A stretch of 64,000 nt of DNA. Source: Candida dubliniensis CD36. Its lineage: Eukaryota; Ascomycota; Pichiomycetes; Serinales; Debaryomycetaceae. The stretch lies in assembly GCF_000026945.1 (NCBI RefSeq), contig NC_012863.1, positions 310,001-374,000 on the forward strand, in the 5' to 3' direction. The notes below the pieces were generated by a model, which was given only the letters and a program-made list of their open reading frames with translations, was not told where the DNA came from and made no database searches. Of this stretch, positions 18,751 to 29,659 are shown piece by piece; position 1 is the stretch's first letter, and the number at the start of each line of letters is the position of its first letter. A program made the translations under genes and the position numbers.

Positions 18751-19269
18751 TTAGTAGAAAGTAGTTGGAGCGGTGGCTTGGAACAATTTCTTAGATTTTT
18801 GGACTCTGTGTGGTAATGGGAATTTCAAGTCTTTAGTCAAGAATTGTTTAACGTATTGTCTTTTAACGTCATCAGTCTTTTCTAATTCAACAACTTTCAA
18901 GATATGGATACTTCTAAATCTAGCTCTGTGTCTAGCAGCTAAATCTTGGTACATGGTTTCAACAGCGCCAACTCTAGTGACATCTCTGTATTCTTTGTAC
19001 ATGTTATGAATACCAGATCTAGATTCATATCTTAACCAAATACCAAAAGTCTTGACTTTAGTTGGTTTAGCTTCAGAAATAATGTTAACTGATACAATTT
19101 CACCAGAAGCTTTCTTAACTTTATGCAATTTTTGCAAGAAATACCAATATCTTGATTTGGCAACAACGGTGTTTGGAGCAAAAATTCTCATTCTGAACAA
19201 CTTTGGTTCTGGAACGGATTCAGTTGGTAAATTACGACCAATAACTTGATATTCGTTTAATCTAGACAT
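18751..19269 (-). CDS. RPL20: 60S ribosomal protein eL20 (Rpl20)
   Basis: The 172-aa product starting [33 protein letters not shown] matches yeast Rpl20 (eL20, formerly L18a) along its length and ends in the family signature QATAPTTFY. The frame could be extended upstream to another Met, but that extension overlaps a branch point and 3' splice site (TACTAAC ... TAG), so those bases are intronic. I place the start at 19269, four bases after the splice acceptor. The intron is therefore entirely in the 5'-UTR. In C. albicans two ERG25-type and several single ribosomal-protein genes exist; I believe this locus is called RPL20B there, but I cannot confirm the suffix. Confidence 0.97.
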
Positions 19270-19273
19270 CTTT

Positions 19274-19569
19274 CTATAATTATTGAAAAAAGTTAGTATT
19301 TTCATTCTCAGAACTGAGGGCAGGCACTAAACTTGACAAAAAGGAATACATGGTAAGGTTGAAGTTCTTCTATACGTTGATGGAACCCCCCATTAATTAT
19401 TAATAAAAAAAATTTCACTCTCCCATCTCTGATTCTCTATCGATTCAATATCATATCCCCAATCTTATGACATGCTATGTAACTTTTTCATAAATTCTCA
19501 AATATCTCCATTTCAAGTTTATATCCTTTGTCATGTTATATTATAATATTCTCATGGTGTTTAACATAC
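19274..19569 (-). other. Predicted 5'-UTR intron of RPL20
   Basis: On the minus strand GTATGT starts at 19569, the exact branch point TACTAAC lies at 19298-19292, and the acceptor TTATAG ends at 19274, 17 nt after the branch point. These are the consensus signals for yeast introns. Splicing gives a leader that joins AACCGAAGA to AAAG followed by the start codon. No box C/D snoRNA was convincing inside the 296-nt intron. Confidence 0.82.
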
Positions 19570-19847: not shown

Positions 19848-19873
19848 GTCACATGTTAGGGCTATAGCCCTAA
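19848..19873. promoter_or_regulatory. RPL20 promoter: Cbf1 site next to an inverted pair of Tbf1 sites
   Basis: GTCACATG (19848-19855) matches the Cbf1 motif RTCACRTG. It abuts TTAGGGCTATAGCCCTAA (19856-19873), a perfect 18-bp palindrome made of two AGCCCTAA Tbf1-type sites. In C. albicans, ribosomal-protein promoters are known to use Tbf1 and Cbf1 instead of Rap1. The site is about 280 bp upstream of the predicted first splice donor, as expected if transcription starts shortly before it. Confidence 0.8.
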
Positions 19874-26919: not shown

Positions 26920-27428
26920 AATCTGATATGGACAAAATGAAATCTGGTCTCCACAGTTTTCTTTTATCTGAATTTAAAGAAGGTTTATTTTCTTCGAAAT
27001 TGTTATTATCGCATCTTGTTATACTGTAAAAAAAAAAATTAAAGATTTCCTTGAAAAGGTTATTAAAAAAAAAAATGGACAAGGGGAGGCGGCGGAATTA
27101 TGACTCTGTCTCTCTCTATCTATCTATCTGTTCGCAAATAACTGCCAAGGCAGGATCAACTGGGCCCACCTTTGCAATTCAAACGGCATCAACAAATTTA
27201 TCATACACCAGAGGAGGAGGTTCAATATCTTGTAGTGGTCTCCCATAACCTACACTACATTGAACTACCTGATTAATCTTTATGAACTCTTGTAAAAAGA
27301 TTGCTCTATAGACTTAGCTACAATAGTTACCACAACTTTATGCCGTACGTAAGCAAAGAGGTATAATGCGGCAATAGAATAAGAGATTAATTCTATACAT
27401 TAAAGATACTTTAATTCTATTCTGAGCC
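26920..27428. promoter_or_regulatory. Upstream region of the BUL1-like gene
   Basis: About 500 bp between the BUL1-like start and the last predicted snoRNA-host splice acceptor. It must hold the BUL1-like promoter. I see purine tracts and a CT-rich stretch near 27104-27130, but no motif I can name. Confidence 0.5.
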
Positions 27429-27489
27429 CTATTCAAAAGGTTAGTATTCTATTTTTAATAATTGAAATCTTAGATGTTAATATATATAT

Positions 27490-27595
27490 ATCATAATCAG
27501 ACTGACATGCAAATCGAATTTTAGTGAATTTCTTTTCATGGTTTTTTGGAACTCAATGGAAAGATGAAATTGGTATAGTATCATCAAAATAAATA
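27490..27595 (-). ncRNA. snR72: Box C/D snoRNA, snR72-like
   Basis: C box TTGATGA at 27587-27581 (first base off consensus) and D box CTGA at 27500-27497. The bases directly before the D box, CGATTTGCATGTCAGT, pair with the 25S segment CUGACGUGCAAAUCG (one G-U pair). The fifth base upstream of the D box faces the A that I recall as Am876, the snR72 target. It lies in the intron 27645-27429. The terminal stem is weak, so the exact ends are uncertain. Confidence 0.83.
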
Positions 27596-28049
27596 AATAG
27601 ATATATAACATCAAGTAAAGAATAAAAGTAAATTATATCACATACCCATGGCTTTAATTCATATGTTTATAAACAGTAGGGTAGTTTTCAAAAAGTAAGA
27701 AGAACCAAAATGAAAAAAAAAAAAAAAAAAAAAATTTTCACCACGACCATCAGAAGCATCATTGAAAGTGTTAATAATAAATTGACCCCTTTTACACGAA
27801 ATATATGAGTTCAATTGAATGAACTAAATCATGACATTGATAATATGCAGAAAACAGAAGCAGAAGAAGTTAGATTAATGGAAATACCCCACAAAGGAAA
27901 GAGAAAATAAAGTAATTAGGTTTCAAATGGTTTTGGTTTTGAAGTAGTAAATTACATTATTCTAAAGCAATAGAATGTTTTTGAATTGAAAATATTTTAT
28001 TCAGAACACTATATATACATAATGAAGATAAACATAATATAAAAAATGC

Positions 28050-28175
28050 TTCTATGTTATATCAGGAACCACGGCCGGTCAAGGCCAGATTTATCATCAA
28101 TATTTAGGAATTAACAGTCCCTAAACAACAGTAGACCGTCGTGAAAAATGTGGTGTAATCATCATAAACATAGAA
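28050..28175 (-). ncRNA. snR73: Box C/D snoRNA, snR73-like
   Basis: C box ATGATGA at 28165-28159, D' CTGT at 28131-28128, C' TTGATGA near 28100, D box CTGA at 28065-28062. A perfect 9-bp terminal stem TTCTATGTT/AACATAGAA closes it. The guide before D' (TCACGACGGTCTA) pairs with 25S UAGACCGUCGUGA and places the modification on the C recalled as Cm2959. The 3' half contains an unusually GC-rich segment (GGCC-TTGA-CCGGCC) before box D, of unknown purpose. Confidence 0.92.
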
Positions 28176-28309
28176 CCACTAATTATGTTTCTTTCTTTAT
28201 ATACCTAATACCAATATATGTATATGTATATATATTTTCTTCAAATGAAAACAATTAGAATCGGTTTTTATTGAAAGTCTTCAATATTATCATTCTTTTC
28301 TTTAAAATT

Positions 28310-28393
28310 TCAAAAATCAGACAATACTTTATATCTTCATAAATTCAGACATATGCTTGTCAAAAATTTTGAGGAAAATTTCATCATATTTAA
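28310..28393 (-). ncRNA. snR74: Box C/D snoRNA, snR74-like
   Basis: C box ATGATGA at 28387-28381, D' CTGA at 28348-28345, a C'-like ATGAAGA near 28340, D box CTGA at 28320-28317. The guide GACAAGCATATG before D' is complementary to the 5' end of 18S rRNA (CAUAUGCUUGUC). The fifth base faces A28, the known snR74 site. The flanks are A/T-rich and pair only partly. Confidence 0.92.
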
Positions 28394-28521
28394 AATTTTT
28401 AATAATGACTATTGAAGACCCACTAAAATCCAAAGTTAAGAATCTATTGTTTGCCCCTGTCTGTTATTAAGTTAGTATACAAATTTGATTTCCAAAAAAG
28501 CACAAAGCAAATACAGTTGAC

Positions 28522-28619
28522 TTAGATCAGAAATGCATGAATGGTAATTAAATAAAAGTTTGTCATCAACGGGAAACCCAAGATTCTGACTCGTCATCTA
28601 GTAAAATCATCACATCTAA
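28522..28619 (-). ncRNA. snR75: Box C/D snoRNA, snR75-like
   Basis: C box GTGATGA at 28613-28607, an internal C'-like TTGATGA, D box CTGA at 28530-28527, and a terminal stem TTAGA/TCTAA. The guide CCATTCATGC before D pairs with 25S GCAUGAAUGG. The fifth base faces the first G, recalled as Gm2288. It lies within the predicted intron 28673-28461. Confidence 0.92.
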
Positions 28620-28734
28620 TTTTCATAAATATATATATATATATATGGGAGAACCCACATATGAAATACATACACTTCAAAAAAAACAAGTTAGTACATT
28701 GTCCCAACTATGATATATTGAATTTACAATTAGT

Positions 28735-28840
28735 TTATTGTATAAATCAGTTACGATGGGTTTCTGAGGCCCACCTAAAAATGCATTATCACTCATAAAT
28801 TATTCAGTGCCCAGTGCAATAATTCATCCTAATCCAATAA
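28735..28840 (-). ncRNA. snR76: Box C/D snoRNA, snR76-like
   Basis: A C-like box AGGATGA at 28830-28824 (one deviation from RTGATGA), D' CTGA at 28807-28804, C' GTGATAA near 28790, D CTGA at 28750-28747. The guide TTGCACTGGGCA before D' pairs with 25S UGCCCAGUGC, facing the C recalled as Cm2197. An outer stem TTATTG/CAATAA is present a few bases from the boxes. It lies in the predicted intron 28876-28675. Confidence 0.87.
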
Positions 28841-28982
28841 AAACAAAAAAACAAAAAAAATATATTATTGACATACACTTTTTGAATTGGAATGTTAGTA
28901 AATATATAATTCTAAAATGGAGTTTAATTCAAAAAATTTCCAATTTCTTTGTTTCAACAATTTTAATTTTAATTAATATAAA

Positions 28983-29075
28983 AAAAATCAGGAGCGTATT
29001 GGTGCAAAAACTTTATCAATCATTAGATTTCAGCCAGTAATTCCAGCTTTGTTTTTGTTAAATCATCATTGAAAA
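28983..29075 (-). ncRNA. snR77: Box C/D snoRNA, snR77-like
   Basis: Complete box set: C ATGATGA 29069-29063, D' CTGA 29033-29030, C' ATGATTG near 29020, D CTGA 28991-28988. The guide AGCTGGAATTAC before D' pairs with the universally conserved 18S GGUAAUUCCAGCU, and the fifth base faces the U recalled as Um578. It lies in the predicted intron 29151-28878. A T run precedes the C box, so no clear terminal stem is seen. Confidence 0.92.
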
Positions 29076-29248
29076 AAAAAAAAAAAAATTTCAAAACAAC
29101 AGAAATGAAAGGGTGAATGAAATATTGAATGTAGATAATATTAAAACATACATTAACTGATATTTGAAGTTAAGTTAGTATATATATAATCTTCCATAAA
29201 CCTTGTGAAATTGAAAGCGTTTTTTTTGTAATTAAAACAAAGAAGAAG

Positions 29249-29343
29249 AATTGTCAGAAAGCCATGCATAAAATAATTTTCTGATCATTCCGATTAAAGT
29301 CACAGACTCTAGTTTAAATGATTATTCGTATTCATCCTCAATT
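29249..29343 (-). ncRNA. snR78: Box C/D snoRNA, snR78-like
   Basis: A C-like box AGGATGA at 29338-29332, D' CTGT at 29305-29302, D CTGA at 29257-29254, terminal stem AATTG/CAATT. The guide AAACTAGAGT before D' pairs with 25S ACUCUAGUUU, facing the U recalled as Um2421. The region before box D (ATGCATGGCTT) also matches 18S AAGCCAUGCAU, a possible second target. It is the first snoRNA of the host. Confidence 0.88.
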
Positions 29344-29640
29344 TCATTTCTCTTTGGGTAATAGTGTCAATGTTTCATTTCAATTAATAATAGAAACTAA
29401 ACATACAAGTATATATATATATAATGATTTTTTTTGGTTAATTGATTAAAGAAGAAAAGAAAACATACAAGAAGGGTTTGCAAAAGAGTGAAGGAAATTT
29501 TTATGATTTTATACTAACGAATGAGAAAATTTTTTCTTCTTCTTCTTCTTCTGTTTGATGAGTATGTGTATGTGCGTGTACACATTACAAATTAAACTTC
29601 ATGCTGGGTAATTTCGCACTTTAGTATTTATAGAAACTAG

Positions 29641-29648
29641 TTAGGGCT
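29641..29648 (-). promoter_or_regulatory. Tbf1-type site AGCCCTAA upstream of the snoRNA host
   Basis: TTAGGGCT on the plus strand lies 11 bp past the MPE1 stop and about 170 bp before the first GTATGT of the snoRNA host. Tbf1 is known to mark snoRNA promoters in yeasts, so the site fits. The promoter would overlap the MPE1 3'-UTR. Confidence 0.6.
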
Positions 29649-29659
29649 ATTAGATCTAT

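Follow-up and report, generated by a model that had tools for sequence, protein, structure and literature searches.

Analysis of a 64 kb window (the whole stretch of DNA that was analysed) revealed on its minus strand a cluster of seven box C/D snoRNAs that we assign, with a probability of roughly 90%, to fungal snoRNA cluster I, five of its members lying in apparent introns and two, snR74 and snR73, in an exon. Both the cluster and its arrangement are already known as the 'cluster I' of Candida. Earlier Candida work on this snoRNA cluster, by Mitrovich in 2010, reportedly formed the basis for the later studies of Luo and of Donovan. Cluster I is described in Luo 2013 (PMC3596301) and in Donovan 2016 (PMC5033589), the latter citing Mitrovich 2010 for C. 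albicans. According to passages of these papers, cluster I has five intronic snoRNAs in Candida, the exonic two being left unnamed in the text (PMC5033589), splicing of C. albicans cluster I has previously been confirmed (PMC3596301), the internal exons are small or absent in the Candida clade (PMC3596301), and the mechanisms of snoRNA processing in Candida call for further analysis (PMC5033589).

Genomic context of the cluster

The snoRNAs are located in a gap of 2740 bases (26920-29659; A+T content of approximately 73%), flanked on one side by an orthologue of MPE1 and on the other by a BUL1 family gene. The MPE1 orthologue matches the PDB MPE1 chain (E 9.8e-85), contains the Pfam DWNN and zinc knuckle domains, and shows, among the best 120 of its 573 matches, three top ones at 100%, 99% and 88% as well as those from C. 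viswanathii at 82% and from C. maltosa at 77%, while the BUL1 family gene is defined by the Pfam domains Bul1_N and Bul1_C. The first-pass annotation had described a 2.7-kb gap with no protein gene; no ATG-started ORF of at least 100 amino acids was present in 26920-29659 in the ORF list. Its further claim, that the cluster accounts for the entire gap, went too far, as positions 29468-27429 cover 2040 of the 2740 bases and leave 191 bases upstream and 509 bases downstream.

In the part of the gap that separates the cluster from the BUL1 family gene, the minus strand carries, at 27149-27160, the sequence GTTGATCCTGCC, which resembles the 5' end of 18S rRNA. An inverted repeat at 27215-27270, with arms of 21 nt (76% complementary) and a spacer of 14 nt, likewise lies upstream of the BUL1 family gene. 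No tRNA was found anywhere in the 64 kb window, and CTG made up 52 of the 1265 CTN and TTR codons counted in 22 of the 36 listed ORFs. The window is probably from a close Candida relative of C. albicans.

Identity and predicted targets of the seven snoRNAs

All seven minus-strand guides that had been claimed, in the order snR78-77-76-75-74-73-72, were recovered by the combination of Rfam matches, boxes and guide pairing. The Rfam check on the cluster bore out four of the seven at gathering score, namely snR77, snR76, snR75 and snR73, which were also the only matches at this score in the whole window; snR78, snR74 and snR72 fell below it. With lowered thresholds, snR78 was retrieved by its own family (RF01176, 26.3 bits against a gathering score of 48, E 0.46), snR74 as SNORD27 (RF00086, 34.1 bits against 52) and snR72 as snoZ122 (26.0 bits against 38, E 0.083), together with weak, chance-looking matches, such as those to two microRNA families. 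Because these three snoRNAs remained below the Rfam cut-offs, guide pairing was tested directly, and their putative identity rests on boxes and guide pairing.

The limits of all snoRNAs are given from the C box to the D box, all are on the minus strand, and their target sites were taken from a site table in PMC8307265. On this basis, snR78 (29254-29337; guide TTAAACTAGAGTC, D' GTGA) is predicted to target 25S Um2421; snR77 (28988-29068; guide AGCTGGAATTACTG; RF01181, 77.7 bits), 18S Um578; snR76 (28747-28829; guide GCACTGGGCA; RF01209, 77.9 bits), 25S Cm2197; snR75 (28527-28612; guide CCATTCATGC; RF01185, 78.1 bits), 25S Gm2288; the exonic, SNORD27-type snR74 (28317-28386; guide GACAAGCATATG), 18S Am28; the exonic snR73 (28062-28164; guide TTTCACGACGGTCTA, D' CTGT; RF01207, 60.7 bits), 25S Cm2959; and snR72 (27497-27586; guide TCGATTTGCATGTCAG), 25S Am876.

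In the pairing test, each snoRNA was compared with a short piece of S. cerevisiae rRNA around the site listed in PMC8307265, using a CTGA box for five of the seven, GTGA for snR78 and CTGT for snR73, the last two from a short list of spellings of our own choosing. Against these pieces the expected type of base, as distinct from a numbered position, was found at D/D'+5 for all seven guides, and their longest pairings extended over 10-16 nt. Shuffled snoRNAs paired as well or better in 0 of 200 cases for five members, in 1 of 200 for snR76 and in 2 of 200 for snR75. The search for related snoRNA or rRNA DNA returned 0 and 0 loci in genome contigs and 0, 0 and 2 loci in viral contigs; neither of the two viral-contig loci (L001 and L002) had an Rfam match at gathering score, and they were dropped as presumed chance matches.

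Splice signals and apparent introns

The minus strand of the gap contains five exact TACTAAC motifs, at positions 29180, 28900, 28696, 28477 and 27446, and six exact GTATGT motifs, compared with one TACTAAC, two GTATGT and no donor-branch pair on the opposite strand. When the 2740 bases of the gap were dinucleotide-shuffled 3000 times, TACTAAC occurred 0.16 times on average and four times at most, and no shuffle reached five TACTAAC, six GTATGT, six donor-branch pairs or three branch-AG-donor seams. The claimed excess of five exact branch points over chance is thus confirmed, the expectation by shuffling being 0.16 in place of the approximately 0.3 given initially. Flanking of the cluster by splice signals, claimed for all members, was found for snR78, snR77, snR76, snR75 and snR72 and not for snR74 and snR73.

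Each of these five members is the single snoRNA of an apparent minus-strand intron marked by GTATGT, TACTAAC and a terminal AG. The intron with snR78 (29157-29406) measures 250 nt from the donor at 29406, has its TACTAAC at 29180 and ends with CAG at 29157; an alternative GTATGT donor at 29468 would lengthen it to 312 nt. It is followed, across a branch-AG-donor seam with an internal exon of 5 nt, TTAAT (29152-29156, minus strand), by the intron with snR77 (28878-29151; 274 nt; TACTAAC at 28900, AAG end at 28878). Two further seams of the same type, each with a 1 nt minus-strand internal exon, T, at 28877 and 28674, respectively, delimit the intron with snR76 (28675-28876; 202 nt; TACTAAC at 28696, AAG end at 28675), the second leading into the intron with snR75 (28461-28673; TACTAAC at 28477), which is 213 nt long to its first CAG, a second CAG ending at 28457. 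The intron with snR72 (27429-27645; 217 nt) has TACTAAC at 27446 and a TAG end at 27429. The distance from the D box to the branch A was 55-56 nt in three of the five introns and 79 and 93 nt in the remaining two. Among the five apparent introns, those with snR77 and snR76, which end in AAG at 28878 and 28675 on the minus strand, differ in this respect from the C. parapsilosis group, for which the text of PMC5033589 gives TAG or CAG ends in cluster I.

From these signals, taken together with the published Candida work, we infer that the five introns are spliced. Exons of 1 nt would imply either an ordered removal of neighbouring introns or exon skipping, and skipping has been described for cluster I of C. 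parapsilosis, where it yields minor products (PMC5033589, in part).

The exonic pair snR74 and snR73 and its predicted stems

A long minus-strand exon (27646-28460) carries both snR74 and snR73. The motif scan of 28456-27646 found no exact TACTAAC or GTATGT; with one mismatch allowed, it yielded one branch-like site, at 27776, and seven donor-like sites, the branch-like site being downstream of both snoRNAs. A wholly intronic cluster was rejected, because snR74 and snR73 share this exon devoid of exact splice signals. Excision of all seven by splicing, which would require snR74 and snR73 to lie in introns whose signals are weak or unrecognised, would find a precedent in Euascomycetes, where every cluster member is reported as intronic (PMC3596301, in part), and could draw on the seven donor-like sites and the branch-like site at one mismatch; it is nevertheless very unlikely, given that the exact signals are missing from 28456-27646, that the lone branch-like site is 3' of both snoRNAs, and that the text of PMC5033589 counts five intronic members for Candida.

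Both exonic snoRNAs are bracketed by predicted minus-strand stems. The arms of the snR74 stem lie at 28401-28421 (5' arm, GGGTCTTCAATAGTCATTATT) and 28275-28295 (3' arm, GAATGATAATATTGAAGACTT), and those of the interrupted snR73 stem, with approximate limits, at 28166-28204 (5' arm) and 28015-28059 (3' arm), part of the latter stem having also been found as an inverted repeat. When 45 bases on either side of each snoRNA were paired and the energy was computed, snR74 and snR73 each gave -22.4 kcal/mol and the other five between -6.9 and -13.3 kcal/mol. Among 4000 random placements, chosen with overlap allowed from positions covered by neither the listed ORFs nor the gap, 16 reached -22.4 kcal/mol, the mean being -9.5 and the lowest value -29.6 kcal/mol. 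Mononucleotide shuffles of the snoRNAs' own flanks were as good in 0 of 500 cases for snR74, 0 of 500 for snR73, 2 of 500 for snR77 and 7 of 500 for snR72, and random placements were as good as the flanks of snR77 and snR72 in 674 and 1002 of 4000 cases, respectively. Since the flanks of snR77 and snR72 also outperform most of their own shuffles, the contrast in stems is one of degree. Still, a stable bracketing stem of the kind looked for in RNase III precursors was predicted for snR74 and snR73 only. The fold of 28460-28059 had a z-score of -2.86, with 0 of 100 shuffles as low, compared with an unremarkable -0.36 (34 of 100 shuffles) for 28059-27646. No mention of these stems was found in the text sections consulted from PMC3596301 and PMC5033589.

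The claim that the cluster is processed by splicing is therefore retained for the five members bracketed by splice signals; for snR74 and snR73 the stems suggest endonucleolytic release. The opposite extreme is that, as in S. cerevisiae, where Rnt1p cleaves an exonic cluster (PMC5033589, in part), endonucleases cut all seven free and exonucleases trim them, the splice-like signals persisting as relics in decay. This reading might appeal to the mild pairing of the snR77 and snR72 flanks relative to their own shuffles. It is extremely improbable, as decay would not leave exact motifs, five of TACTAAC and six of GTATGT, in correct order, the five intronic snoRNAs have no stems above the random-placement background, and splicing of cluster I is reported for C. 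albicans (PMC3596301) and C. parapsilosis (PMC5033589) in the passages cited. A more serious, although still unlikely, alternative accepts the cluster as described and takes the stems of snR74 and snR73 for chance pairing in AT-rich DNA, with release by exonucleases or an unrelated cleavage. The base composition of the gap would favour such pairing, as would the 98 weak inverted repeats, with the outer snR74 arms not among the 25 of the 98 that were listed, and the -29.6 kcal/mol attained by the lowest random placement. Against it, only 16 of 4000 placements match each stem, and both stems fall on the snoRNAs that have no splice signals.

Proposed processing of the host transcript

The layout of five intronic and two exonic members would be read out from a single non-coding minus-strand host transcript carrying all seven snoRNAs. 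For snR78, snR77, snR76, snR75 and snR72, splicing would be followed by debranching and exonuclease trimming, and snR74 and snR73 would remain in a retained exon until cleavage of their bracketing stems by an RNase III-type (Dcr1/Rnt1-like) enzyme. Each mature snoRNA would then direct 2'-O-methylation at one rRNA site. Since C. albicans Dcr1 is described as an enzyme with Rnt1 activity that processes rRNA and snoRNA (PMC11047096, in part), RNase III cleavage would be the likeliest route for the exonic pair, and we consider such a release by way of the predicted stems rather probable.

More tentatively, at somewhat less than even odds, the two routes within one transcript may be complementary in origin, such that a stem is unnecessary for the members still housed in an intron, and snR74 and snR73 exchanged a lost intron for an RNase III stem. 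If so, the locus would represent a surviving intermediate between an all-intronic ancestor and the all-endonucleolytic cluster of S. cerevisiae, and the contrast in stems, if real, would tie the loss of introns to the gain of endonuclease signals in a single transcript. That the introns of the host are its functional product in Candida, while its exons shrink, here down to 1 base, agrees with the published biology.

Tbf1-like sequences and a ribosomal protein gene

A Tbf1-like half site, AGCCCTAA, occurs on the minus strand at 29641-29648, approximately 12 bases beyond the stop codon of MPE1 and near the presumed promoter of the cluster. Tbf1 has been located at six C. albicans snoRNA promoters, whose names the passage does not give (PMC2926782), and in this species it is stated to require the palindrome TTAGGGN6CCCTAA (PMC2834713, in part). 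Control by Tbf1 through the full C. albicans palindrome was rejected, as the cluster has a half site only; the 13 matches to TTAGGGN6CCCTAA with at most three mismatches in the window include none near the cluster.

Elsewhere in the window, a perfect TTAGGGN6CCCTAA palindrome, TTAGGGCTATAGCCCTAA, was observed at 19856-19873, upstream of a minus-strand gene for a ribosomal protein of the L18A/L20 family (18751-19569). This gene has an apparent 5' UTR intron, with GTATGT at 19569, TACTAAC at 19298 and TAG four bases before the ATG. By its position, it also corresponds to the seventh of the seven minus-strand donor-branch pairs of the window, the other six being in the snoRNA gap.

Comparison with known snoRNA clusters and hosts

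The cluster agrees with the Candida cluster I, as presented in the published text, in its members, their order, the number of five intronic snoRNAs, the non-coding host and the small or absent internal exons, and no difference was found in that text, the published exon sizes standing in figures. Within snR78, the text of PMC5033589 contrasts GTCTGT in C. albicans with GTATGT in the C. parapsilosis group; the snR78 described here contains GTCTGT and so matches C. albicans at this position. Unlike in C. parapsilosis, snR72 is located inside the cluster. The snR72-78 polycistron of S. cerevisiae comprises the same seven snoRNAs in identical order, although there all are exonic and released by Rnt1p and exonucleases (PMC5033589, in part), whereas here five lie in apparent introns. 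Mammalian hosts of the UHG/gas5 type are likewise non-coding and carry functional RNAs in their introns (PMC2780460, in part), but the present cluster is distinguished from them by three internal exons of 1-5 nt and by its two exonic snoRNAs.
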